Shown here: positions 12,245 to 29,630 of the stretch, in pieces | Position numbering within the stretch: the first letter of the stretch is position 1 | How the letters are laid out: every line of letters begins with the position of its first letter | Virus record (IMG/VR): IMGVR_UViG_3300020204_000264 | Location: 1 to 29,630 of that record | Reading direction: 5' to 3' (one strand) | Length of the DNA: 29,630 nucleotides | Source: a virus | The notes under the pieces: generated by a model | Database searches by the model: none | What the model was told of the DNA's origin: nothing | What the model saw: the letters and a program-made list of their open reading frames with translations, nothing else | Made by a program: the position numbers and the translations under genes

Positions 12245-12922
12245 CTAATCGATAGCTTCACCGTCTTCTACTTTTAACTTAATTCGAGTTTTCTTTGGCT
12301 TCGGCTGGTCTACGACCTCCTTATTATCTTGTTTCTTCTTCATCATTTCTACAGCAGCAAAACGTTTCTTCAAACGCGGCTTGATCTCTTCTGCATTATA
12401 CCATAGCTCTATACCGTTAAGGACTTTCTTAAGTTCGTCAGGAGTTAAGAACCCTTCGTAAGCATCCTTCATGAGATTCTCACACTGCTTGACAGTAAAG
12501 TCTGTATGTGCCTTGACTGTTGGGGTGTTACCAGATGAGCCGAATGAGGCTGTATGAACCATCATGTAGGCTGTATCGTAAACGTGTACAGCATGACAGT
12601 ACATAGCTATAATAGAGGCCGCAGAATGACATGCACCCATGATGAACGCTGTGACTTCTGCTTCACTTGATAGGATACCAGAAACTATGGCTGCGGCTGT
12701 ATCAAGGTGACCACCCGGCGAGTTGATATAAAGATGGATCTTATCGTTTGGACCAGCATTGACTAGCACAGAGATAAGTTCTCTATACTTACTTGGTTCC
12801 TCGATCTCTGCATCTAAGAATACTTCATGCACACATGTTGTAGATGTTATCGTATTGATATGTACATTATTAATTAGTCCACTTAATAAATTAGGGACGT
12901 TTTCATTTGCCAATTTAGTCAT
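12245..12922 (-). CDS. ClpP-like serine protease (S14 family)
   Basis: 225 residues from the ATG at 12922, two bases after the previous stop; a longer frame to 12985 would overlap the SleB-like gene and add non-family sequence. The ClpP core is visible: LYINSPGGHLDTAAAI (oxyanion-loop region), the nucleophile Ser near residue 100 in IMGACHSAASI, and His near residue 123 in YMMVHTAS. The Asp is less certain, since ELWYNAEEI replaces the usual motif. The C-terminus is Lys-rich. In T4-like phages of this type, ClpP-like proteases are common and may process prohead or host proteins. No ATPase partner is in the window, so whether it works with host ClpX/ClpA is open. Confidence 0.88.
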   Translation of the reverse strand: MTKLANENVPNLLSGLINNVHINTITSTTCVHEVFLDAEIEEPSKYRELISVLVNAGPNDKIHLYINSPGGHLDTAAAIVSGILSSEAEVTAFIMGACHSAASIIAMYCHAVHVYDTAYMMVHTASFGSSGNTPTVKAHTDFTVKQCENLMKDAYEGFLTPDELKKVLNGIELWYNAEEIKPRLKKRFAAVEMMKKKQDNKEVVDQPKPKKTRIKLKVEDGEAID

Positions 12923-12924
12923 TA

Positions 12925-13452
12925 TTAAATCTTTCTGTAAAAAATATGATTCCCAATAACAGCTGTTACTGTTACGTTTTTCCATTCAGGTTTAACAGCT
13001 TTTGTATGAAAAAACAATGCACCTTTTGTTAAGTCGTACATCTCTCTATAGTTTAAGTACGTATGTAGAGCTATCTGTCTAGCATCTTCAAACGCTTGTT
13101 TCTCGTGTTTAGTGTATCTATATGATTGTGCTTTGATCCTTTTATAATCATCACAGTACCAACTAAACTGGCATACTTCCTCAAACTTTTGAGTCATGGT
13201 AGCACATATAGATCTTGGATAATTTCCAGAATATACGCGGTTTAGTGTGACTAGTGCTACTGCTACCTTACCTTGTTTAGGTTCGTATCCAGCTTCATAA
13301 TAGATATTTTGTGCTAGACATTCTACTTGTTGTTTTTCCACCTTAGTTAATTTTTTAGGTGGTTCTATCTTTTGTCGTGTTTGTTCTGTATGTGCAATTG
13401 TAAAATTACACAGGTAACACAATGCCAAAATGACAGCAAAAGTTCTCTTCAT
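12925..13452 (-). CDS. Exported cell-wall hydrolase, SleB/Hydrolase_2 family
   Basis: 175 residues. Residues 1-20 form a signal peptide (MKRTFAVILALCYLCNFTIA). The domain that follows has ECLAQNIYYEAGYEPKQGKV, ALVTLNRVYSGNYP and EVCQFSWYCDD, the pattern of SleB-type lytic transglycosylase/amidase domains, with the Glu of YYEA the likely catalytic residue. It would act on peptidoglycan in the periplasm. AAGGAG precedes the ATG and a TTTACT/TATAAT promoter lies upstream. Since the GH19 endolysin appears to be the main lysin, this exported enzyme may help weaken the wall early or assist DNA entry or superinfection control; these roles are guesses. Confidence 0.85.
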   Translation of the reverse strand: MKRTFAVILALCYLCNFTIAHTEQTRQKIEPPKKLTKVEKQQVECLAQNIYYEAGYEPKQGKVAVALVTLNRVYSGNYPRSICATMTQKFEEVCQFSWYCDDYKRIKAQSYRYTKHEKQAFEDARQIALHTYLNYREMYDLTKGALFFHTKAVKPEWKNVTVTAVIGNHIFYRKI

Positions 13453-14957: not shown

Positions 14958-15599
14958 TTAAGCTGTTAAAATCTCAATGGCGTGGTTATAATGTTTGATT
15001 CGGTCTTCGAGGCCGATGTAACCACCATTAATTTTCTTAGTCATTAACTTAATATCACCTAGATCAGCTTCACGGTTTAGTTTGTTTTTATTCCAAAACC
15101 ATAATGCTGAATATAATGCGGTAGGTATATCGTCTGTCACGAGGTCAGGATCATTCATCACCGTTTCTGGATCTTCAAAGAAGTCAGTTGCAAACGCTTG
15201 ATAATTAGCCTTACCTGTTAATTGAATTGGACCACGTCCTCTATACTTATAACCTTCTCCGCTTGCAGTATCTCCGTTACCCATACGGCTTGCATATATT
15301 ACGTTTGCAATCATTTCAGGTTTACGGTGATATGGAGCAGCATCTCTACCAGCTGAAGCAAAGTACTTACTAAACAGTTTGTTCAATGCATCAGCAGAGT
15401 AGTTTAGGTTTTCTTGAAGAGTCGTGAAGTCCGCAGATTCATGTGCACACTGAGCCACAAAAGCAGCAACGCGTTTTGCTGTAGTTACTTCAAATTGAGG
15501 TAACTGCTCAAACATTGCCTCATACCACTCGTGTACTTTCTTATTACGAGTAAGTATCTTAGCTAGTTTTTGCTCAGTAAATTCGAAATCGAAGCTCAT
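14958..15599 (-). CDS. Endolysin, GH19 chitinase-like
   Basis: 213 residues from the ATG at 15599, which overlaps the stop of the small membrane-protein gene; the frame is open further to 15632 but that would overlap it more. The GH19 pattern is clear: VAQCAHESADFTTLQENLNY contains the two catalytic Glu, and GYKYRGRGPIQLTGKANYQAF is the family substrate-binding signature. There is no signal peptide and no separate wall-binding domain. In phages of Gram-negative hosts such enzymes cut peptidoglycan glycan strands at lysis. A late promoter at 16066-16073 heads this gene set (FmdB-like, membrane protein, endolysin), consistent with late expression. Confidence 0.9.
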   Translation of the reverse strand: MSFDFEFTEQKLAKILTRNKKVHEWYEAMFEQLPQFEVTTAKRVAAFVAQCAHESADFTTLQENLNYSADALNKLFSKYFASAGRDAAPYHRKPEMIANVIYASRMGNGDTASGEGYKYRGRGPIQLTGKANYQAFATDFFEDPETVMNDPDLVTDDIPTALYSALWFWNKNKLNREADLGDIKLMTKKINGGYIGLEDRIKHYNHAIEILTA

Positions 15600-15739
15600 T
15601 ATTTTGCCACTAAACCTGATACTTTTGCCCATACTGCTTTTGCAAAAGATACAGCTGTGTCAACGATTAGTGTTGCTTTTTGTGGGTATTTTGCACCCAA
15701 ATGAGCACCAACTAAAAATACAATAATGTTTGTTAACAT
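15599..15739 (-). CDS. 46-residue membrane protein, holin candidate
   Basis: 46 residues: MLTNIIVFLVGAHLGAKYP, a short hydrophobic N-terminal segment, then KATLIVDTAVSFAKAVWAKV, an amphipathic helix, ending VAK. AAAGGAG stands at proper distance before the ATG. The stop overlaps the endolysin start (TAATG), so the two are translationally coupled. Size, membrane character and adjacency to the endolysin make it a candidate holin or pinholin, but no family is recognised and only one clear membrane segment is visible. Confidence 0.7.
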   Translation of the reverse strand: MLTNIIVFLVGAHLGAKYPQKATLIVDTAVSFAKAVWAKVSGLVAK

Positions 15740-20433: not shown

Positions 20434-20510
20434 TGGTGGGCCCACATGGACTCGAACCATGGACCAAAGGATTATGAGTCCTCTGCTCTAACCAACTGAG
20501 CTATAGGCCC
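20434..20510 (-). tRNA. tRNA-Ile2 (anticodon CAU, CCA encoded)
   Basis: A full cloverleaf can be drawn: acceptor GGGCCTA with TGGGCCC, D-arm GCTC/GAGC, anticodon stem GAGGA/TCCTT with loop CTCATAA, T-arm CATGG-TTCGAGT-CCATG, discriminator A and encoded CCA. CAU could mean Met, but acceptor pairs C4-G69 and C5-G68, the ACTCATAAT loop and the following TTGGTC resemble tRNA-Ile2, whose C34 is changed to lysidine by host TilS so that it reads AUA. AUA codons are frequent in this A/T-rich phage, which would explain its value. Confidence 0.88.
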
Positions 20511-21788: not shown

Positions 21789-22505
21789 TTAGTAATTTTC
21801 AGCTAAGAATTCAGCTTCGGGGATGCGTGTATGAGTGTTCTGGGAGCCTAAAACCACGACTGATCTCTGGCCCTTATCTGTGGACATAAGCATCGCCAGG
21901 CAGCCTCCGGCAGGCCTTGTATAGCCTGTCTTGGAGATCAGTATGTCCTGACGTTTACCTATGAGAGGGTTAGTGTTCTTAAAGACCCAGAAACGCTTCT
22001 TGGTCTTAATCTTGATCTTTGCCTGTTGAGATGCGTTGACTAATTCTGGATATTTTGCAGCTTCCTGGACTAACTGTGTTAGCTCCATGGCTGTGGATTT
22101 GTTACGTCTATCAAGACCAGTAGCATCATAGACGATGGTGTTGAGTAGGTTAAGCTTAAATAACAAGTGATTCATGTCAGCTATACACCTGTCATATCCA
22201 CCTACATATAACTGACATAATAAGTCTGCAGTTTGGTTATTTGACTTTACTATGGCCATGTCTATCAGCTGATGGCGTGTTATCATACCAAAAGCTTTAG
22301 TCTTGACTGGAGCTTCTATGTTCTCTCCGCTGTTTAATATGGTCATCGCTGTGACTAGTTTTGTGATAGATGCTATTGACCTGACTTCTGCAATATTTTG
22401 CCCCGCGATCACCTTTCCATCTTCATCTGTCACCACCCATGAGTTAGCAGTTATGTCTTGAGCATAGCAGTTGAATGCTAATAAAAGTAAAATTAAGAAC
22501 TTCAT
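21789..22505 (-). CDS. Exported D,D-endopeptidase/carboxypeptidase, PBP7-like (S11 family)
   Basis: 238 residues from the ATG at 22505, which overlaps the cyclase stop (TAATG); an upstream in-frame start at 22538 would lack the signal peptide at its N-terminus. Residues 1-15 are a signal peptide (MKFLILLLLAFNCYA). All three penicillin-binding motifs are intact: S46-I-T-K49, S88-N-N90 and K192-T-G194. The protein is shorter than E. coli PBP7 (PbpG, ~310) and has no C-terminal anchor, so it should be a soluble periplasmic enzyme that trims or cuts peptide cross-links. Presence in a phage, in one operon with an adenylate cyclase, is unusual. Roles could be lysis support, wall loosening for export of fibres, or changed wall stiffness. 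Confidence 0.9.
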   Translation of the reverse strand: MKFLILLLLAFNCYAQDITANSWVVTDEDGKVIAGQNIAEVRSIASITKLVTAMTILNSGENIEAPVKTKAFGMITRHQLIDMAIVKSNNQTADLLCQLYVGGYDRCIADMNHLLFKLNLLNTIVYDATGLDRRNKSTAMELTQLVQEAAKYPELVNASQQAKIKIKTKKRFWVFKNTNPLIGKRQDILISKTGYTRPAGGCLAMLMSTDKGQRSVVVLGSQNTHTRIPEAEFLAENY

Positions 22506-24514
22506 TACTTGCTTGTGGCTCGATATACACCGTCCCACTCAGCAGGGAGACCTTCGTCCATTCGTTCTATCATCTTGTGATAGTAGTCTTTGATAGTAAC
22601 GTTATTATCATCGATGAGTTCTTGTGCCCATTCTGTAGCACGTTTCCAATTACCGCGATAGTATTCTTTTAGATACTCTTCATGTTTATGTTTAATAGTC
22701 TCGCCTATCGTGTATACCTTAACTCCTTCGGTCTTGCCCTTAACAGCGATCGTATCCATCTCTACGACTGAATAAACTTCTTTAGCATACTCTGCGGTCT
22801 TTGTACCTAATACGATACGTACACCATAGTTCTTTGATTGTCCTTCTAAACGGGAAGCAAGATTGACCGCATCACCAAGACAAGTGTAATCAAAACGCTG
22901 GCTGCTACCCATATTCCCAACAACCACGTCGCCGCTGTTAATACCAAGTCCCATACCGAACGCTGGTATATTTTCTTTAGCGATCTCTTCATTGAATTTA
23001 TCCAAATCATTTAACATCTCCAATCCAGTCTTAACTGCATTTAATGCATGATCCTTATCATCTAAAGGAGCATTCCAAAAAGCCATCTGAGCATCACCTA
23101 TATACTTATCAAGTGTACCATTATTTTCAATGATCTTTGCTGTCATGGCTGTCATGTATCTGTTCATGATCTTAGTCAGACCTTGAACGTCTTTACCATA
23201 ATGTTCTGAGATAGTCGTGAAGCCACGAACGTCTGTAAACATGATTGATAATTCTCTAGTCTCACCACCAAGCTTCAATAGCTCTGGGTTCTTTTGTAAC
23301 TTTTCAACCATTGCTGGCGATAAGTATGTACCAAATTGTTTCTTGATCTGTAGCTTTTGGTTTAATTCAGAAATGAACTTAACGGTGTATGCATGACCAT
23401 AGACAACAGACAAGCTAATAATAGGATAAATGCCGTCCAACAGAATACCTTGATGGGCGAACACGTAGCGAGAAGCGTAATATATAGAACCAATAATACT
23501 AATGATAGGAAGAATAGCATATTTCCACCTCGTTAAAAAGATTATGATGATTGATAATACAACTATAGCAAGCATCTCAGCACCATCTGCCCAATCAGGA
23601 CGAGATATGTTGGCGCCAGATGTTAGTGTATCTAAAACTGAAGCTTGTACATAATGAGGATAGACGGCTCCTCGTGGGGTTGCAACGGGATTGTTAAGTC
23701 CGCGTGCCGATAACCCAACGATGACGATACCTCCATCGAATGACTTGGGTAATCCCACAAGACTGTGTTCAATCGGCGTGGAACTCCAATCGACCCATAT
23801 TCTACCCATTGGGTCTGTGACGACCTTGGCGAAGCTAGGTATTCTGACAGCTTCAATCCCGTTTGCGTTTGACTTGACTTGGAAACTTGGGTCTCCAACT
23901 GCAACACGCATTGTTTCAAGACTGATACTTGGGTACAATTGGCCATCACTTGCGACGACCATAGGGATACGACGAACAACACCATCAATTTCAGGTAATA
24001 CATTTACGACTCCTATTCCAGCAGCTTTGCTGTTAAATGATGATATATTGGCTTGAATGCCCGGATAGTTTACTGCATGATCAGAAGCTTTGCCTCCGAT
24101 TTCTGATACTCCCGGTCTAAATGCACCAGGTTTTTGTTTGTCTGATGTTGCGACTTGTGGTAATACTACAGGATGCCTAGTAAGGGTATCAGCCAGTCCA
24201 GCATCTTTTCCAAACCTATCACTATCAGGCATAAACAGATTAAAGACAACAAGACCAGCCCCACGGCTGTAAAGATCTTCGATGATATTTGCATATTGGG
24301 TCCTTGGAAATGGAAATTGCCCAAGGTGTTCTATAGACTTATCATCTATGTTTACGACATGGACTTGTTTTGATTGTACTACAGGTTTACTTGTGATCAG
24401 CGTGTCAAAGTATCTAAGACGAACTGACTCTACAAATGATGGATCTGATACTCTAATGCCTACTAAAACTAATAGGGTGACTAGTGCAAACCATGGGCTA
24501 AGTAATTTTTTCAT
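22505..24514 (-). CDS. Membrane adenylate cyclase with CHASE2 sensor domain (class III)
   Basis: 669 residues. One N-terminal membrane helix (~8-21), an extracytoplasmic CHASE2 domain (~30-310: VRLRYFDTLI, FPFPRTQYANIIEDLYSRGA, ISSFNSKAAGIGVVN), three membrane helices (~313-382) and a class III cyclase domain (~415-605). The catalytic set is complete: metal ligands D428 and D474, substrate residues K470 and D548, transition-state residues N551 and R555; Lys/Asp predicts ATP use and cAMP as product. A helical tail follows. The ATG lies five bases after AATAAATA, so expression late in infection is expected. In bacteria CHASE2 cyclases often sit near FecR genes, and a FecR gene is present about 4 kb away here. 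Confidence 0.95.
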   Translation of the reverse strand: MKKLLSPWFALVTLLVLVGIRVSDPSFVESVRLRYFDTLITSKPVVQSKQVHVVNIDDKSIEHLGQFPFPRTQYANIIEDLYSRGAGLVVFNLFMPDSDRFGKDAGLADTLTRHPVVLPQVATSDKQKPGAFRPGVSEIGGKASDHAVNYPGIQANISSFNSKAAGIGVVNVLPEIDGVVRRIPMVVASDGQLYPSISLETMRVAVGDPSFQVKSNANGIEAVRIPSFAKVVTDPMGRIWVDWSSTPIEHSLVGLPKSFDGGIVIVGLSARGLNNPVATPRGAVYPHYVQASVLDTLTSGANISRPDWADGAEMLAIVVLSIIIIFLTRWKYAILPIISIIGSIYYASRYVFAHQGILLDGIYPIISLSVVYGHAYTVKFISELNQKLQIKKQFGTYLSPAMVEKLQKNPELLKLGGETRELSIMFTDVRGFTTISEHYGKDVQGLTKIMNRYMTAMTAKIIENNGTLDKYIGDAQMAFWNAPLDDKDHALNAVKTGLEMLNDLDKFNEEIAKENIPAFGMGLGINSGDVVVGNMGSSQRFDYTCLGDAVNLASRLEGQSKNYGVRIVLGTKTAEYAKEVYSVVEMDTIAVKGKTEGVKVYTIGETIKHKHEEYLKEYYRGNWKRATEWAQELIDDNNVTIKDYYHKMIERMDEGLPAEWDGVYRATSK

Positions 24515-24519
24515 ATGTT

Positions 24520-24527
24520 TATTTATT
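24520..24527 (-). promoter_or_regulatory. T4-type late promoter of the cyclase, leaderless configuration
   Basis: AATAAATA on the minus strand, overlapping the stop of the upstream gene, then exactly five bases and the ATG at 24514. Same spacing as the plus-strand sites before gp4 and the 5006 gene. Confidence 0.7.
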
Positions 24528-25158
24528 CGTATGTTACTGTATCGCTATCACCTAGTCTCCATTTAGGATTAGTCTCTACCACATACTTCTTGGTGCAGAC
24601 TTTAAAATCAGGGAATAACATCTCTTTTGGATTACTTGCTGCATCAAAGAATATACACCTGTTATTCGGCTGAGCAGCATACTGTCCATTGTTTAGTTGT
24701 ATAAAGTTAAAACTCTTATGATCTTCTGGAACTTCACTGTAACTCGTATCTAGTATGTTTAAGTCTGGAGCTGAATTATCTACCGTAAACATATAGTCAC
24801 CATGATGAAACTGTTTATCTTTAGCATACACCTTACAGCTTAAGTTCCTTAAGAATGCTTTTTGTATGACTGCTATGTCATAACTAAAACAATCCCATAT
24901 CTGTAAAGTGTCTAGTGATAAGAACTTTTCAGGTTCTAGATCAGTCGTTCTACTTACATAAGCATGCAACGGCAACTTATCATATAAAGCTCCGTATCTT
25001 GGGAAGTATGACTCTATCCTAAATGCTTGACTACGAAGGCTCTTGATACTAACCCATATACATGACTCATATTCGCCATGACCAGATTTAAAATCATATA
25101 AGAACTCCTTACGAACATAGCAATGTACTGGAGGCAAGTTAGCTACAAGGAAACTCAT
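24523..25158 (-). CDS. Conserved T4-like phage protein of unknown function
   Basis: 211 residues. MSFLVANLPPVHCYVRKEFL, HGEYESCIWVSIKSLRSQAF, YFPRYGALYDKLPLHAYVSR, LQIWDCFSYDIAVIQKAF and FNFIQLNNGQYAAQPNNRC form a strongly conserved pattern that I know from cyanophage-type T4-like viruses, without function. No signal peptide. It has its own promoter with the ATG six bases after the -10. It is a core phage gene set between cargo genes, which indicates that the surrounding envelope genes were inserted around, or carried with, the phage backbone. Confidence 0.8.
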   Translation of the reverse strand: MSFLVANLPPVHCYVRKEFLYDFKSGHGEYESCIWVSIKSLRSQAFRIESYFPRYGALYDKLPLHAYVSRTTDLEPEKFLSLDTLQIWDCFSYDIAVIQKAFLRNLSCKVYAKDKQFHHGDYMFTVDNSAPDLNILDTSYSEVPEDHKSFNFIQLNNGQYAAQPNNRCIFFDAASNPKEMLFPDFKVCTKKYVVETNPKWRLGDSDTVTYE

Positions 25159-25164
25159 ATTGAC

Positions 25165-25193
25165 ATTATACTCCTATAGTTAATTAAAGTAAA
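25165..25193 (-). promoter_or_regulatory. Promoter of the 211-aa gene, leaderless configuration
   Basis: -35 TTTACT (25188-25193), 17-base spacer beginning TTAATTA, -10 TATAAT (25165-25170), six bases (GTCAAT) and the ATG at 25158. Nearly identical in layout to the promoter at 19854-19882. Confidence 0.8.
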
Positions 25194-25194
25194 A

Positions 25195-26187
25195 TTATTT
25201 AACAGCTTTGATAAATATATCAAAACAATTTTTCCAAGTCCATGTTTTAATAGATAATTCTTGTACTTTAACGTTATCTAATGACTTACATTTTTCTATA
25301 GCAGACTGTAACCCATTGCCATACATGCTTAGATATCCTGTAACACCATATTCAATGATATCTTGTGGACCAGTTACCCTATATGCTGCTACAGGTAATC
25401 CATTACATAAAGCTTCTATGATAACTATACCAAAAGTATCAGTTAGACTTGGGAAAACAAATATGTCGTTCTCTACATATATTTGCTTTAATTCATCTCC
25501 AAATTTATAACCAGTAAAGTTAACCTTTCTGTATTTGCGGATCAGCTGAGGTAAAATAGGCCCGTCTCCGACTACAGTGATATCATACATATTTTGTAAA
25601 TTACATAAGTCTTCTAAGTTCTTTTCTTTGCTTACCCGACCTACATACAAAATCTTTGGAGGCATATTCTTTGTTTTGTCTTTACGCTTTTCTATGAGAT
25701 CTTTTGATACGCCTCTAGTCCATATAACTAGATTTACAAACCCCTTAGATTGCAATTCTATGCTCATCGATTCACTCGGTACTAACACAGCTTTTGAATA
25801 CTTGTGAAACCATTTAAGATACCTATATGTGATAGATGTAGGTATCCATAATAATTTTTTTAAGAATTCTGGAAACTTAGTATGATACGCTGTAGTGTAT
25901 GGTATCTTGTTTGCGTCACAGTAGAACTTTGCAAATAGTCCTAGCGGTCCCTCTGTCGCGATGTGAATACGATCCGCACCCATCTTCTTAATCTTACTGA
26001 TAAAGAACGAAGGAAGGGAAAGTTTGACCTCAGGATAAAAAGGACAGCTAATATGACGGAACTTCCCGGGATCAAGATAAACAATACTATGACCAGCAGA
26101 AACAGCATGATCCTCAATATTTTTGTATGTAGTGACAACGCCATTGACTTGATCTCTTAAATTGTCTGTTACTATTAATATCTTCAT
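25195..26187 (-). CDS. agt: GT4-family glycosyltransferase, Agt-like (glycolipid synthesis)
   Basis: 330 residues. N-terminal Rossmann part with VTDNLRDQVNGVVTTYKNIE, the acceptor-side IHIATEGPLGLFAKFYCDAN and IPYTTAYHTKFPEFL; C-terminal nucleotide-sugar half with ILYVGRVSKEKNLEDL and FPSLTDTFGIVIIEALCNGL (E-x7-E region). This is the pattern of GT4 enzymes that add a sugar to diacylglycerol, such as Agt and SqdX-type proteins. Its ATG overlaps the stop of the PlcP-like gene (ATGA). The pair PlcP then Agt is known from phosphate-stressed bacteria: PlcP cuts phospholipid to diacylglycerol, and Agt glycosylates it. The exact sugar and acceptor cannot be read; a role in LPS or capsule sugar transfer remains possible. 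Confidence 0.8.
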   Translation of the reverse strand: MKILIVTDNLRDQVNGVVTTYKNIEDHAVSAGHSIVYLDPGKFRHISCPFYPEVKLSLPSFFISKIKKMGADRIHIATEGPLGLFAKFYCDANKIPYTTAYHTKFPEFLKKLLWIPTSITYRYLKWFHKYSKAVLVPSESMSIELQSKGFVNLVIWTRGVSKDLIEKRKDKTKNMPPKILYVGRVSKEKNLEDLCNLQNMYDITVVGDGPILPQLIRKYRKVNFTGYKFGDELKQIYVENDIFVFPSLTDTFGIVIIEALCNGLPVAAYRVTGPQDIIEYGVTGYLSMYGNGLQSAIEKCKSLDNVKVQELSIKTWTWKNCFDIFIKAVK

Positions 26188-26927
26188 ATGATCTCATTCC
26201 AATAAATTATTTCCCATTTACCATCTTCATGTTCTACAAGAGCTGAGCATGATTCTACCCAGTCACCATCATTCATGTAGATTATTCCATTGATTGTCTT
26301 AATCTGTGGAGTATGGATATGGCCGCAAATAACTCCATCAAAGTTTTTTCGTTCACAGTATCCTGCAAGGTTTTCTTCGAATTTGAATACAAAATCTATC
26401 GCTTTCTTTACTTGATGTTTAAGAAACTTACTTAATGACCAATAACCAAACCCTAACCTATGTCTTATGTAGTTAAATTTAGTATTGATCCATAATACAC
26501 AATCATAAGCTGTATCGCCAAGAAACCCAATCCATTTACCAACTCTTGTAATACCATCAAACATGTCACCATGTGTTACTAAGAATAGGTTTCCATCAGT
26601 GTCTCTATACTCTGCTTGGTTACATATAGTAATAGAACCTAAAGCAAACTGATTGACGAATGGTCTAAGGAACTCATCATGGTTGCCAGTCACATATGTA
26701 ACCTTAGTTCCACGTTTAGCATAACCTAGTATCCTACGGATAACATTAGTATGGCTTTGCTTCCATTTCCATTTGTTCTGCTGTATCTTCCATCCATCTA
26801 TGATGTCTCCTACTAAGAACAGATTATCACATTCATGGTGTTTAAGGAAATTATTAAGTAGATCAGCCTTAGCATCCTTAGAACCAAGATGAGTGTCAGA
26901 GATGCAAATAGTCTTATACTTTTTCAT
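26184..26927 (-). CDS. plcP: Calcineurin-like phosphoesterase, PlcP-like phospholipase C (LpxH relatives)
   Basis: 247 residues. All metal motifs are present: D11-x-H13, G40-D41, G81-N-H-D84, H119 in THGD and G202-H-I-H205. The sequence ISDTHLGSKDAKADLL, LVGDIIDGWKIQQNKW, YDCVLWINTKFNYIRHRLGF and YMNDGDWVESCSALVEH is nearer to the PlcP group (bacterial phospholipase C of phosphate-dependent lipid remodelling) than to E. coli LpxH. It is expected to act at the inner face of the inner membrane. A late promoter GATAAATA lies four bases before the ATG. Together with the Agt-like gene it forms a two-gene lipid-renovation set. Database labels such as UDP-2,3-diacylglucosamine pyrophosphatase are the main alternative. 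Confidence 0.85.
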   Translation of the reverse strand: MKKYKTICISDTHLGSKDAKADLLNNFLKHHECDNLFLVGDIIDGWKIQQNKWKWKQSHTNVIRRILGYAKRGTKVTYVTGNHDEFLRPFVNQFALGSITICNQAEYRDTDGNLFLVTHGDMFDGITRVGKWIGFLGDTAYDCVLWINTKFNYIRHRLGFGYWSLSKFLKHQVKKAIDFVFKFEENLAGYCERKNFDGVICGHIHTPQIKTINGIIYMNDGDWVESCSALVEHEDGKWEIIYWNEII

Positions 26928-26931
26928 TTGT

Positions 26932-26939
26932 TATTTATC
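26932..26939 (-). promoter_or_regulatory. T4-type late promoter of plcP-agt
   Basis: GATAAATA on the minus strand, overlapping the stop of the curlin-like gene, then four bases (ACAA) and the ATG at 26927. No Shine-Dalgarno sequence and no pho-box-like repeat is visible. Confidence 0.68.
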
Positions 26940-28462
26940 TATGGTTGTGTGATGCTTGTTGAGCAACCTGCAGCAGTAACACAACTTTGTTGGATACTGT
27001 AAACTTGATTAGTTGATCCTGACTGATTAAGGTTTAATGTAGCTGCTCCACCAGAATTTGTTAAGTCTATGGTTGCCGCATGGTTACCTGAACCAGACTG
27101 AAGTATGGTCGTGTTATGACCAGGACCAGTTAGTTTAAGGTCTAAGTAGTGTTGACCAGAATCTTGCTGAGTAGTCGACACAGTGTTATTATTACCAGTT
27201 ACGCTTTGAAATAAAGTCTTGCTACCAGATCCAGTTTGTAAGTTTAATATACTGTTATTGCTTCCAGCCACAGTCGAATGATTAAAATGACCAGATCCTG
27301 AAGTCGTCCCATCCACTTGTCTTGTAGTGATATTGTTTGAGCTACCGTTTAGGTTAAAGTATAAGTAATGATTATTACTATCAGCCAAAGGCGTAGTGCC
27401 ATCAGAGTTCTTTCCTTGTTTCAAGTTAAAAGTATTATTATCTCCCGTAGAATATAGTTCTATCCTAGCTTTACCCGTAACTGTAGCTCCTTGACTAATA
27501 TCAAAGGTGTTGTTATTTCCAGACTGTTCAACGTATATCTCGTTACCATGTTGTCCTTGTCTGATAGTATTTGCATTGTTCTTTGTAGTCGTTTGTGCTG
27601 GTGTTATTCCAGAACTGTAAGATGGGCCTGGAGCTGGAGGAGGTGGAGCAGAGCTACCAGCATTTGGTGTTACTGGTGTAAACGTTTGTCCATTGAGTGT
27701 AGTAGTTCCTTGCATGACGTCTATGAATAAGATAGGACTCAATGCAGTGTCACCTAAGTTAAACGATGCAAAGCCTAAAGTATAACTACCATTTTCTGGA
27801 ACAGTAAACTGAGCTACTTGCCATCCTGTAGCTCCATAACTGCCTGTAGCATAGTTACCGGTTCCAGGATTTGTAAAACCTAACAATGCATATCTTTGTG
27901 CAAGGTTGTTTAGTGTTGGCATGATATTAGCATTACTAGTGTGTGTTAGTGTCATGATACTACCGTCATTATATGGTGTGTAGTCTGTACTCAAGTATTG
28001 CCAAGCAATCGTGTATGTTACACCAGTTTGTAACGTAAAAGTTTTTTTCATCCAGCTAGAATTAGTTGGAGTAGGGTTTCCACCTCCACCGTTTTGTGAT
28101 TGATATGTCAGGTATTGTTTAATAGCAGTATTTTCAGTGCCAGTCAACCCTAAGCTGCTGATAGCACTATCAAAAGTAACAGTGTTTGAAGATCCAGCTT
28201 GTATACTAGCCATATAAGATCCATATGGGTTTATGTTCCACGTCTTACCTCCACCTGGACTATAGTTTGTAACTCCTGTGGTAAGAGCTACACCCACTCC
28301 TGTAGAACTCCATGTACTCTTCGTAGCGGCTAATGTTCCAGAAACTGTCCACCCGTCTATGCTATTATTTTCAAAGCCTATACCTAAAGTTTCAGCTTTT
28401 GCACCTAAGCAAAATAACAATAGACTAATTTTGAGTAGCGTTAATAACCGTGTTACCACCAT
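26939..28462 (-). CDS. Exported beta-sandwich protein with C-terminal curlin-type repeats
   Basis: 507 residues. Residues ~1-23 are a signal peptide (TLLKISLLLFCLGAKA). Residues ~24-265 look like a beta-sandwich of the carbohydrate-binding or PEP-CTERM type (IGFENNSIDGWTVSGT, GWQVAQFTVPENGSYTLGF, LSPILFIDVMQG). A Pro-rich linker (SAPPPPAPGPS) leads to ~210 residues of curlin-like repeats with regular Asn/Gln/Gly (NEIYVEQSGNNNTFDISQG, NTTILQSGSGNHAATIDL, LNLNQSGSTNQVYSIQQ). The last 15 residues hold two Cys. The ATG lies inside the last codons of fecR (38-base overlap). It could form amyloid-like fibres or an adhesin on the infected cell, or be part of the virion. No CsgG-type exporter is visible in this window. 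Confidence 0.82.
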   Translation of the reverse strand: MVVTRLLTLLKISLLLFCLGAKAETLGIGFENNSIDGWTVSGTLAATKSTWSSTGVGVALTTGVTNYSPGGGKTWNINPYGSYMASIQAGSSNTVTFDSAISSLGLTGTENTAIKQYLTYQSQNGGGGNPTPTNSSWMKKTFTLQTGVTYTIAWQYLSTDYTPYNDGSIMTLTHTSNANIMPTLNNLAQRYALLGFTNPGTGNYATGSYGATGWQVAQFTVPENGSYTLGFASFNLGDTALSPILFIDVMQGTTTLNGQTFTPVTPNAGSSAPPPPAPGPSYSSGITPAQTTTKNNANTIRQGQHGNEIYVEQSGNNNTFDISQGATVTGKARIELYSTGDNNTFNLKQGKNSDGTTPLADSNNHYLYFNLNGSSNNITTRQVDGTTSGSGHFNHSTVAGSNNSILNLQTGSGSKTLFQSVTGNNNTVSTTQQDSGQHYLDLKLTGPGHNTTILQSGSGNHAATIDLTNSGGAATLNLNQSGSTNQVYSIQQSCVTAAGCSTSITQP

Positions 28463-29543
28463 TGTTAATCCTATTCTTGATCTCTACTGGTCCTTGAGTT
28501 TGTGTTATGGTTGTATTTTGATTTTTTGGAGTCGTGATGCATTGTACATCTCCGTTACCTTCACGACATAATGTGACTTGTAGATCATCGACTTCAACTA
28601 ATACACCAGAAGTTGGTATATAATCTGGTAATAATCCAGACTTAGTCTTACCTAATAGATCTAATTGAGCTGCTAATTGTGCATTGATGATGTCTAGTAT
28701 GTTTGCTAATAAATCATTATCTAAGAAGTTTCGATCTAGCTTGCTCTTATATGTCTCAGCTGCCTGTTTTTCTAACACGTTTATGAGTTTGTTCTCCGCT
28801 AAGAAGTCTACATCTAGTGCACCTTTTACTTCAGATCTCTTCTTAGATTTATCTTCATCAGACTCTCTAAGCTCTTTTGGTGGACTTAATATGAGTATGT
28901 TACTTATTTGAGTTTCATCTAAGTTTAAAGTAACTGGTTTAAACGGCTTACTATCTCTGTTATCAACCCTCGTGGCTTGAAACGGTTGATCTAATACAAC
29001 TTTGCCTTCGTCTGTAAGTACTTCGATTTTACCAGTCTTACAATCAAGTATGACGTCTTTATAATCTTTAGGACAACTTGGTAATAAGATTATGGTGCTC
29101 CTACCTAACTCGTCTACTGTAGCAGTAAAGTCTGTACCTCTGACTGCGATAGTAGCGCTTGGTGTATTGATCTTAACGTTGTCTGGGTTATTATGTGCGA
29201 CTGCACCTGATGCATAACGTACTGTGCCTAAAGCGACCTTCATTGCAAGCTTACCACCCTTCTTGCTATTAGGGTCATACACAAAGTCATCGATGACTAG
29301 CTTACTGTTTTCACTTACTTGTACTCTTGTGTCGTCAGCAAAAGTTATACCTGTTTTGCCTTGAGCCGTCTTGACGACGTCGTTCATCTCTACACCTATA
29401 CCTTTATTTCCGGTAAGACTAGAGCCTTTACGTTGGATGTTTGCGGGGGTGTTTTGAAGTTCAGTTATACTACCCACGGCCGCAAGTGTTAGTTGCGGCC
29501 AGAGCAATATGATACATATTAATTTCCAGTAGTAATGTTCCAT
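28425..29543 (-). CDS. Exported FecR-domain protein with curlin-like C-terminal end
   Basis: 372 residues. Signal peptide ~1-21 (MEHYYWKLICIILLWPQLTLA). The FecR domain (~30-165) is visible in VVKTAQGKTGITFADDTRVQ, VSENSKLVIDDFVYDP, LAMKVALGTVRYASG and NTPSATIAVRGTDFTA. It has no N-terminal cytoplasmic part or membrane anchor like E. coli FecR, so it is probably periplasmic or exported. A charged helical region follows (~235-310), and the last 30 residues (NTTITQTQGPVEIKNRINNG) resemble a curlin repeat. It overlaps the upstream curlin-like gene by 25 bases and the downstream one by 38, so all three are made together. FecR domains of this sort are often found with CHASE2 cyclases; that link is from family knowledge. 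Confidence 0.85.
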   Translation of the reverse strand: MEHYYWKLICIILLWPQLTLAAVGSITELQNTPANIQRKGSSLTGNKGIGVEMNDVVKTAQGKTGITFADDTRVQVSENSKLVIDDFVYDPNSKKGGKLAMKVALGTVRYASGAVAHNNPDNVKINTPSATIAVRGTDFTATVDELGRSTIILLPSCPKDYKDVILDCKTGKIEVLTDEGKVVLDQPFQATRVDNRDSKPFKPVTLNLDETQISNILILSPPKELRESDEDKSKKRSEVKGALDVDFLAENKLINVLEKQAAETYKSKLDRNFLDNDLLANILDIINAQLAAQLDLLGKTKSGLLPDYIPTSGVLVEVDDLQVTLCREGNGDVQCITTPKNQNTTITQTQGPVEIKNRINNGGNTVINATQN

Positions 29544-29630
29544 GTATTACCGCTTCCAGAACTCAATACATTAACTGTTGTGTCAATAGTTCCAGATTGA
29601 GTAACGCCAAACGTGTTACTAGATCCAGTT
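29519..29630 (-). CDS. Curlin-repeat protein, C-terminal end only
   Basis: Only the last 36 residues are in the window; the rest lies beyond the right edge. They read TGSSNTFGVTQSGTIDTTVN and then SSGSGNTWNITTGN, with the Asn/Gln/Gly spacing of curlin (CsgA/CsgB) repeats and of the neighbouring curlin-like gene. The stop lies inside the start region of fecR. The N-terminus, signal peptide and promoter cannot be seen. Confidence 0.75.
   Translation of the reverse strand, partial: TGSSNTFGVTQSGTIDTTVNVLSSGSGNTWNITTGN

Follow-up and report, generated by a model that had tools for sequence, protein, structure and literature searches.

The window analysed here, an entire IMG/VR virus record of 29,630 bases whose genes point to a T4-like phage, ends within a set of genes that we read, with slightly more confidence than doubt, as a curli-type (type VIII) secretion module with the roles proposed below. 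Judged by its sequence, the phage encodes a CsgG pore, CsgF, two exported curlins (Cur1 and Cur2), an exported FecR-domain protein and a membrane-bound CHASE2 cyclase, and it is predicted to make both fibres and cAMP. A preliminary description had singled out these genes as an undescribed system. As the same gene order is already deposited for the cultured phages HTVC008M (KC465899) and Melnitz (MZ577097) and the module is named in the literature (PMC9599517), the core system is not new. The features that go beyond this published core are fibre subunits with lectin-like domains, an exchange of cyclase domains, putative lipid genes and a FecR protein in the absence of CsgE.

Gene content and distribution of the module

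The T4-like marks of the window comprise gp32, a late-transcription coactivator (phrog_254), a helicase loader and baseplate-type genes; among isolates, its gp32 is closest to that of Melnitz, at only 50% identity. Read from the right end on the minus strand, the order is curlin end, FecR, Cur2, phosphoesterase, GT4 glycosyltransferase, phrog_3704 protein, CHASE2 cyclase and S11 peptidase (Table 1). In HTVC008M and Melnitz the module sits between gp32 and the baseplate genes; rather than a 'phage island', the term used earlier, the window is a T4-like phage fragment of 29.6 kb. The S11 endopeptidase gene overlaps the end of the cyclase gene and adjoins the module in close relatives; it is probably not a core part of it. 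Three peptidoglycan enzymes (SleB-type hydrolase, GH19 endolysin and S11 endopeptidase) occur within this one fragment, which also carries a ClpP-like protease and a tRNA-Met gene, the sole match of an Rfam search that found no riboswitch.

Table 1. Features of the window and of related loci (positions refer to the window unless a locus, L, is named).
Feature	Position	Strand	Details
ClpP-like protease	12245-12985		phrog_1827
SleB-type cell wall hydrolase	12925-13452		
GH19 endolysin	14958-15632		
tRNA-Met gene	20437-20510	-	CAT anticodon
S11 D-Ala-D-Ala endopeptidase	21789..22538	-	PF00768 E 2.8e-32; SITK, SNN and KTG motifs present
CHASE2, transmembrane helices and class III adenylate cyclase, 669 aa	22505..24514	-	phrog_35576 E 2.5e-284
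phrog_3704 protein ('ferredoxin' label), inserted	24523..25158	-	PHROG E 4.8e-86; role unassigned
GT4 glycosyltransferase, Agt-like, inserted	25195..26187	-	PF13692 E 4.8e-20
Calcineurin-like phosphoesterase, PlcP-like, inserted	26184..26927	-	PF00149 E 9e-12
Cur2, second curlin-repeat protein, 507 aa	26939..28462	-	signal peptide, beta-rich N-terminal part, repeats ~305-485
Exported FecR-domain protein, 372 aa	28425..29543	-	PF04773 E 6.9e-10, above cut-off; signal peptide
Cur1, first curlin-repeat protein, C-terminal 36 aa, truncated by contig end	29519..29629	-	TGSSNTFGVTQSGTIDTTVNVLSSGSGNTWNITTGN followed by stop
Two ~90-aa membrane-protein genes before CsgF (myophages)	L165 5460-6007; L002 6900-7462; L003 7291-7929		
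T4-type late promoter	L165 5448-5455		TATAAATA
Cyclase domain-swap examples	L014 8001-10013; L015 5657-7678; window 22505-24514		

Two contigs (loci L004/L164 and L005/L165) that are 99.8-99.9% identical to the window extend past its end and supply complete Cur1, CsgG and CsgF. The Cur1 fragment of the window has the same residues as the last part of Cur1 in L165, a 262-aa protein, and in L005 (contig 99.9% identical to the window) CsgG (PF03783, E 2.9e-46), with an LAGC lipobox identified by eye, and CsgF (PF10614, E 3.3e-16) are both matched. The preliminary description had looked to the flanking sequence for CsgG/CsgE/CsgF-like exporters; CsgG and CsgF indeed lie there and offer a secretion route, whereas CsgE (PF10627) was found in none of 24 phage records, 22 of which contain CsgG, with a positive E. 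coli control.

Between the promoter and CsgF in L165, and likewise 5' of CsgF in HTVC008M and Melnitz, lie two ~90-aa proteins with one hydrophobic segment each, whose best match is phrog_18771 (function unassigned) and which also weakly match the holin phrog_4898 (E 3.8e-5 and 0.0011). In the podovirus version of the module, by contrast, a histidine kinase gene was reported at this place (PMC9599517). No kinase domain was found in the ~90-aa proteins of these three phages, which are too short for one; its absence from the window phage is not disqualifying, because the cultured myophage members lack it as well, and the kinase label before podovirus CsgF may need checking. The motif TATAAATA, a likely T4-type late promoter, occurs 95 times in 168 distinct CsgF upstream regions against 17.6 expected from the remainder of the same strands, with at least one copy in 74 of the 168 and a commonest distance of 500-750 bases before the CsgF frame. 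This excess supports late expression of the module, in agreement with the earlier proposal that it acts late in infection.

Dozens of IMG/VR contigs carry the same gene set. Loci were collected by conserved peptide patterns and co-occurrence was counted only where enough flanking sequence was present, the fractions thus describing the sample and not all phages. Among the matches listed, CsgG and CsgF accompanied FecR in 49/49 FecR loci and the cyclase in 45/49; CsgG loci had FecR in 16/16 and the cyclase in 14/16, and cyclase loci had FecR in 42/45 and CsgG in 41/45. The CHASE2, FecR and curlin neighbourhood for which a search in related phages had been suggested is therefore real, and the view that these genes form a single module selected together is supported. 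In one scan of genome contigs, four of six loci (L242, L243, L244 and L246) carried the whole or part of the module in MAGs named Caulobacteraceae, Rhodobacteraceae, Flavobacteriaceae and Pirellulales; as these belong to unrelated phyla, they are probably phage contigs that were binned wrongly.

A curli cluster was reported from phages in 2020 (PMC7029224) and from Melnitz in 2022 (PMC9004378), and FecR and adenylate cyclase were named as parts of a phage type VIII secretion module in 2022 by a study that detected CsgG and FecR at every one of the 65 GOV2.0 ocean stations and reported CsgC and CsgD to be absent in phages (PMC9599517). With CsgG and CsgF upstream, curlins flanking FecR, and both FecR and the cyclase present, the genes analysed here belong to this module. 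They share with the pelagiphage version (PMC9599517; HTVC008M) the order CsgF-CsgG-curlin-FecR-curlin-cyclase and the lack of CsgE, but differ from HTVC008M by three extra genes between Cur2 and the cyclase and by the N-terminal domain of Cur2. Melnitz (PMC9004378) likewise shares the module gene order, but it lacks the inserted lipid genes and its cyclase is of a different type at residue 551 (S instead of N).

The FecR-domain and curlin-repeat proteins

As the preliminary description held, an exported FecR protein is flanked by curlin-type proteins, the end of Cur1 and Cur2 lying on either side of it. The protein is 45-47% identical to its HTVC008M and Melnitz counterparts across the matched part, and its dN/dS of 0.03 (versus L007) indicates purifying selection. 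As opposed to the sigma-factor regulators of the FecR/PupR type, which have a cytoplasmic anti-sigma part and a membrane helix before the FecR domain, the phage protein has its FecR domain directly after the signal peptide; neither a cytoplasmic anti-sigma N-terminus nor any other Pfam domain was found. An AlphaFold2 (AF2) model (pLDDT 83.7) suggests that the two share the fold of the periplasmic domain, Foldseek retrieving anti-sigma periplasmic domains at E 1.5e-4 to 5.6e-4 (4m0n, 1.5e-4; 6ovk, 5e-4). The same model matched 5ix9, the domain by which an antifreeze protein is anchored to the cell surface, at E 0.011 (62 aligned columns, 1.2 Å, 27% identity), and a sequence profile of FecR ranked 5ix9 first, at a non-significant E of 0.37. 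The C-terminus ends in a conserved Q and is modelled as six short strands. It was considered as a curlin repeat and rejected, as no Pfam Curlin_rpt match was obtained in the members scanned and a home-made repeat model scored no higher than with shuffled sequence.

Cur2 of the window matches Curlin_rpt at E 0.022, under the Pfam cut-off; the 43 representative homologues include 25 with a match to this family at E<=0.01. The repeats were mostly modelled at pLDDT >80, the N-terminus with low to moderate confidence and without a clear database match; a Foldseek search of the Cur2 model against the PDB returned nothing at E<=0.001. The gene is under strong purifying selection (dN/dS 0.055 versus L007). 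Among the 43 homologues we found PA14 domains in seven, GLEYA in three and F5/8 type C in three, the PA14 domain of HTVC008M Cur2 (residues 83-178, above cut-off) lying in the N-terminal part; mention of these domains on Cur2 homologues was found neither in PMC9599517 nor in PMC9004378. Such lectin-like domains point to adhesion, one of the functions that had been suggested.

The CHASE2 cyclase and the inserted, putative lipid genes

The description of the cyclase as catalytically complete is borne out: CHASE2 (PF05226, E 3.9e-38) and Guanylate_cyc (PF00211, E 1.9e-20) domains are matched, and K470, D474, D428, D548, N551 and R555 (metal, adenine and transition-state residues) are all present at these numbers, with K470 and D548 predicting specificity for ATP. 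D428, K470, D474, D548 and R555 are invariant in 149 distinct phage-locus cyclases spanning 36-100% identity to that of the window. The position of N551 is N in 117 of them and S in 32, Melnitz among the latter, and as S here replaces the transition-state N, activity may differ. In quick trees built under a simple model, the S type formed a single clade when the cyclase domain was used (SH-aLRT 100) and was scattered when the CHASE2 domain of the same proteins was used, with 8 changes among 44 representatives; a single S clade on the CHASE2 tree was rejected (log-likelihood difference 926, p-AU 1.6e-45). In one such case (L014) the CHASE2 domain is 90% identical to that of the window and the cyclase domain 51%. 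On the evidence of these trees, output domains were exchanged between sensors, and the S-type cyclase domain is one that has been swapped repeatedly between phage CHASE2 sensors, a behaviour for which our literature search found no prior description. The gene itself is under purifying selection (dN/dS 0.09-0.11; 0.11 versus L007). A cNMP-binding domain (PF00027) was not found in 22 phage records, both cultured genomes included, and phage-made cAMP would therefore act on host proteins.

That CHASE2 and FecR genes are often neighbours in bacteria, as stated earlier, is fair: a FecR-domain gene lay within 3 kb of the CHASE2 cyclase in 5 of 20 alphaproteobacterial regions examined. CHASE2 cyclases occur in 168 of 289 Alphaproteobacteria genomes. 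CsgG or CsgF was near the cyclase in none of the 20 fetched regions, and in this small sample the link of CHASE2 and FecR to curli looks phage-specific. A Burkholderia biofilm operon encoding a LysM-FecR protein and a CHASE2 histidine kinase (PMC5192318) likewise places a periplasmic FecR-domain protein beside a CHASE2 sensor, although its output is a histidine kinase and that of the phage a cyclase.

The three genes between Cur2 and the cyclase are missing from L007, whose nucleotide identity to the window is 84%; they thus differ between close relatives and are most simply explained as an insertion in the window phage. The phrog_3704 protein had no significant Pfam or NCBIfam match. The phosphoesterase and the GT4 protein are 51% and 38% identical, respectively, to the products of adjacent P. 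aeruginosa genes (plasmid copy), after which comes a class III cyclase gene; we take this order to be PA3219-PA3218-PA3217, i.e. plcP-agt1-cyaB. The GT4 protein is also 38% identical to a Sphingomonas neighbour of a phosphoesterase, and a PDB sequence search with the phage phosphoesterase gave no match. In marine heterotrophs agt is the commonest neighbour of plcP, and the pair acts in lipid remodelling under phosphate limitation (PMC4796936). These pairs and that of P. aeruginosa (PMC9804370) place a metallophosphoesterase beside a GT4 as in the window, but the window pair, with its predicted lipid function, lies in a phage and inside a curli module. The two genes stand side by side in the window and in 20 retrieved loci, which reduce to 13 distinct loci when phosphoesterases >90% identical are counted once, and in these 13 the pair is next to or near the curli module; in phage Mosig the phosphoesterase neighbours a gene that bears a phosphate ABC transporter annotation. 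The pair is likely a candidate for phage-borne lipid remodelling, and a report of a phage plcP-agt pair was not found in a literature search.

Possible functions of the module

In the reading that we favour, the curlin proteins would exit via CsgG late in infection and coat the surface with an adhesive layer, whose binding part would be the N-terminus of Cur2, which is variable and often lectin-like. The periplasmic FecR protein could anchor or gate the CsgG pore, a task that falls to the periplasmic gate CsgE in E. coli. CHASE2 would monitor periplasmic conditions, possibly by way of FecR, and the cAMP that is made would act on the host. The phage would likely profit from infected cells and debris that adhere or clump together, or from a shield against other phages, and the inserted pair would turn phospholipids into glycolipids and free phosphate. 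Against the module reading stand the sub-threshold Curlin_rpt score of the window Cur2, the weakness of the 5ix9 match at the sequence level, the absence of clumping in Melnitz-infected cultures and the S residue in 32 of the 149 cyclases, whose activity may differ. A fuller envelope programme, in which FecR replaces CsgE as gate or anchor and reports the state of the pore to the cyclase, the resulting cAMP tunes the host, lectin-tipped fibres attach to cells or particles, the PlcP-Agt pair rebuilds the membrane with glycolipids and N- and S-type cyclase domains are exchanged between sensors, seems to us quite unlikely in its entirety.

Other functions can be envisaged for the same genes. The CsgG pore might be a late lysis or permeability device that depolarises or opens the outer membrane, with the other genes as regulators and fibres minor or absent, as was proposed for Melnitz from a narrowed CsgG model and because the authors checked infected cultures for clumping and saw none (PMC9004378). 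The holin-like matches of the ~90-aa pair and the lack of a CsgE gate in the 24 records fit this idea; yet a pore alone needs neither a strongly selected Cur2 nor the lectin-like domains of many of its homologues, and a GH19 endolysin and a cell-wall hydrolase are encoded by the phage itself. We therefore regard a lysis device as unlikely. The pore might instead admit large nutrients such as cofactors or iron chelates, FecR being its iron-linked regulator (suggested in PMC7029224 and PMC9599517). This would agree with the fold shared with the periplasmic part of FecR-type regulators, but the phage FecR carries a signal peptide and lacks the cytoplasmic anti-sigma part before its FecR domain, the module is without sigma factor or TonB receptor, and the fibre proteins are left unexplained, which makes this function highly improbable.

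It is also conceivable that the cyclase acts mainly alone: phage cAMP would reprogramme the transcription or metabolism of the host, with the curli genes as no more than linked neighbours. Catalytic residues conserved over 149 sequences, and the abundance of CHASE2 cyclases in Alphaproteobacteria, with no CsgG or CsgF nearby in the 20 regions examined, speak for such independence; the phage cyclase loci speak against it, 41 of the 45 with enough upstream sequence among the matches listed adjoining CsgG, as does the absence of a cNMP-binding protein from the 22 records, and we hold it to be very unlikely.

If the module works as a secretion system in the way we propose, phages of abundant aquatic bacteria would provide a sticky surface together with a cAMP signal to hosts in which curli are reportedly lacking, and aggregation, particle formation and encounter rates would be affected. 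With their lectin-like domains, the fibres can be tested for what they bind, and a conserved FecR in the absence of CsgE makes the gating of CsgG testable. The PlcP-Agt-like pair, in turn, would be a route by which phages alter membrane lipids and free phosphate.
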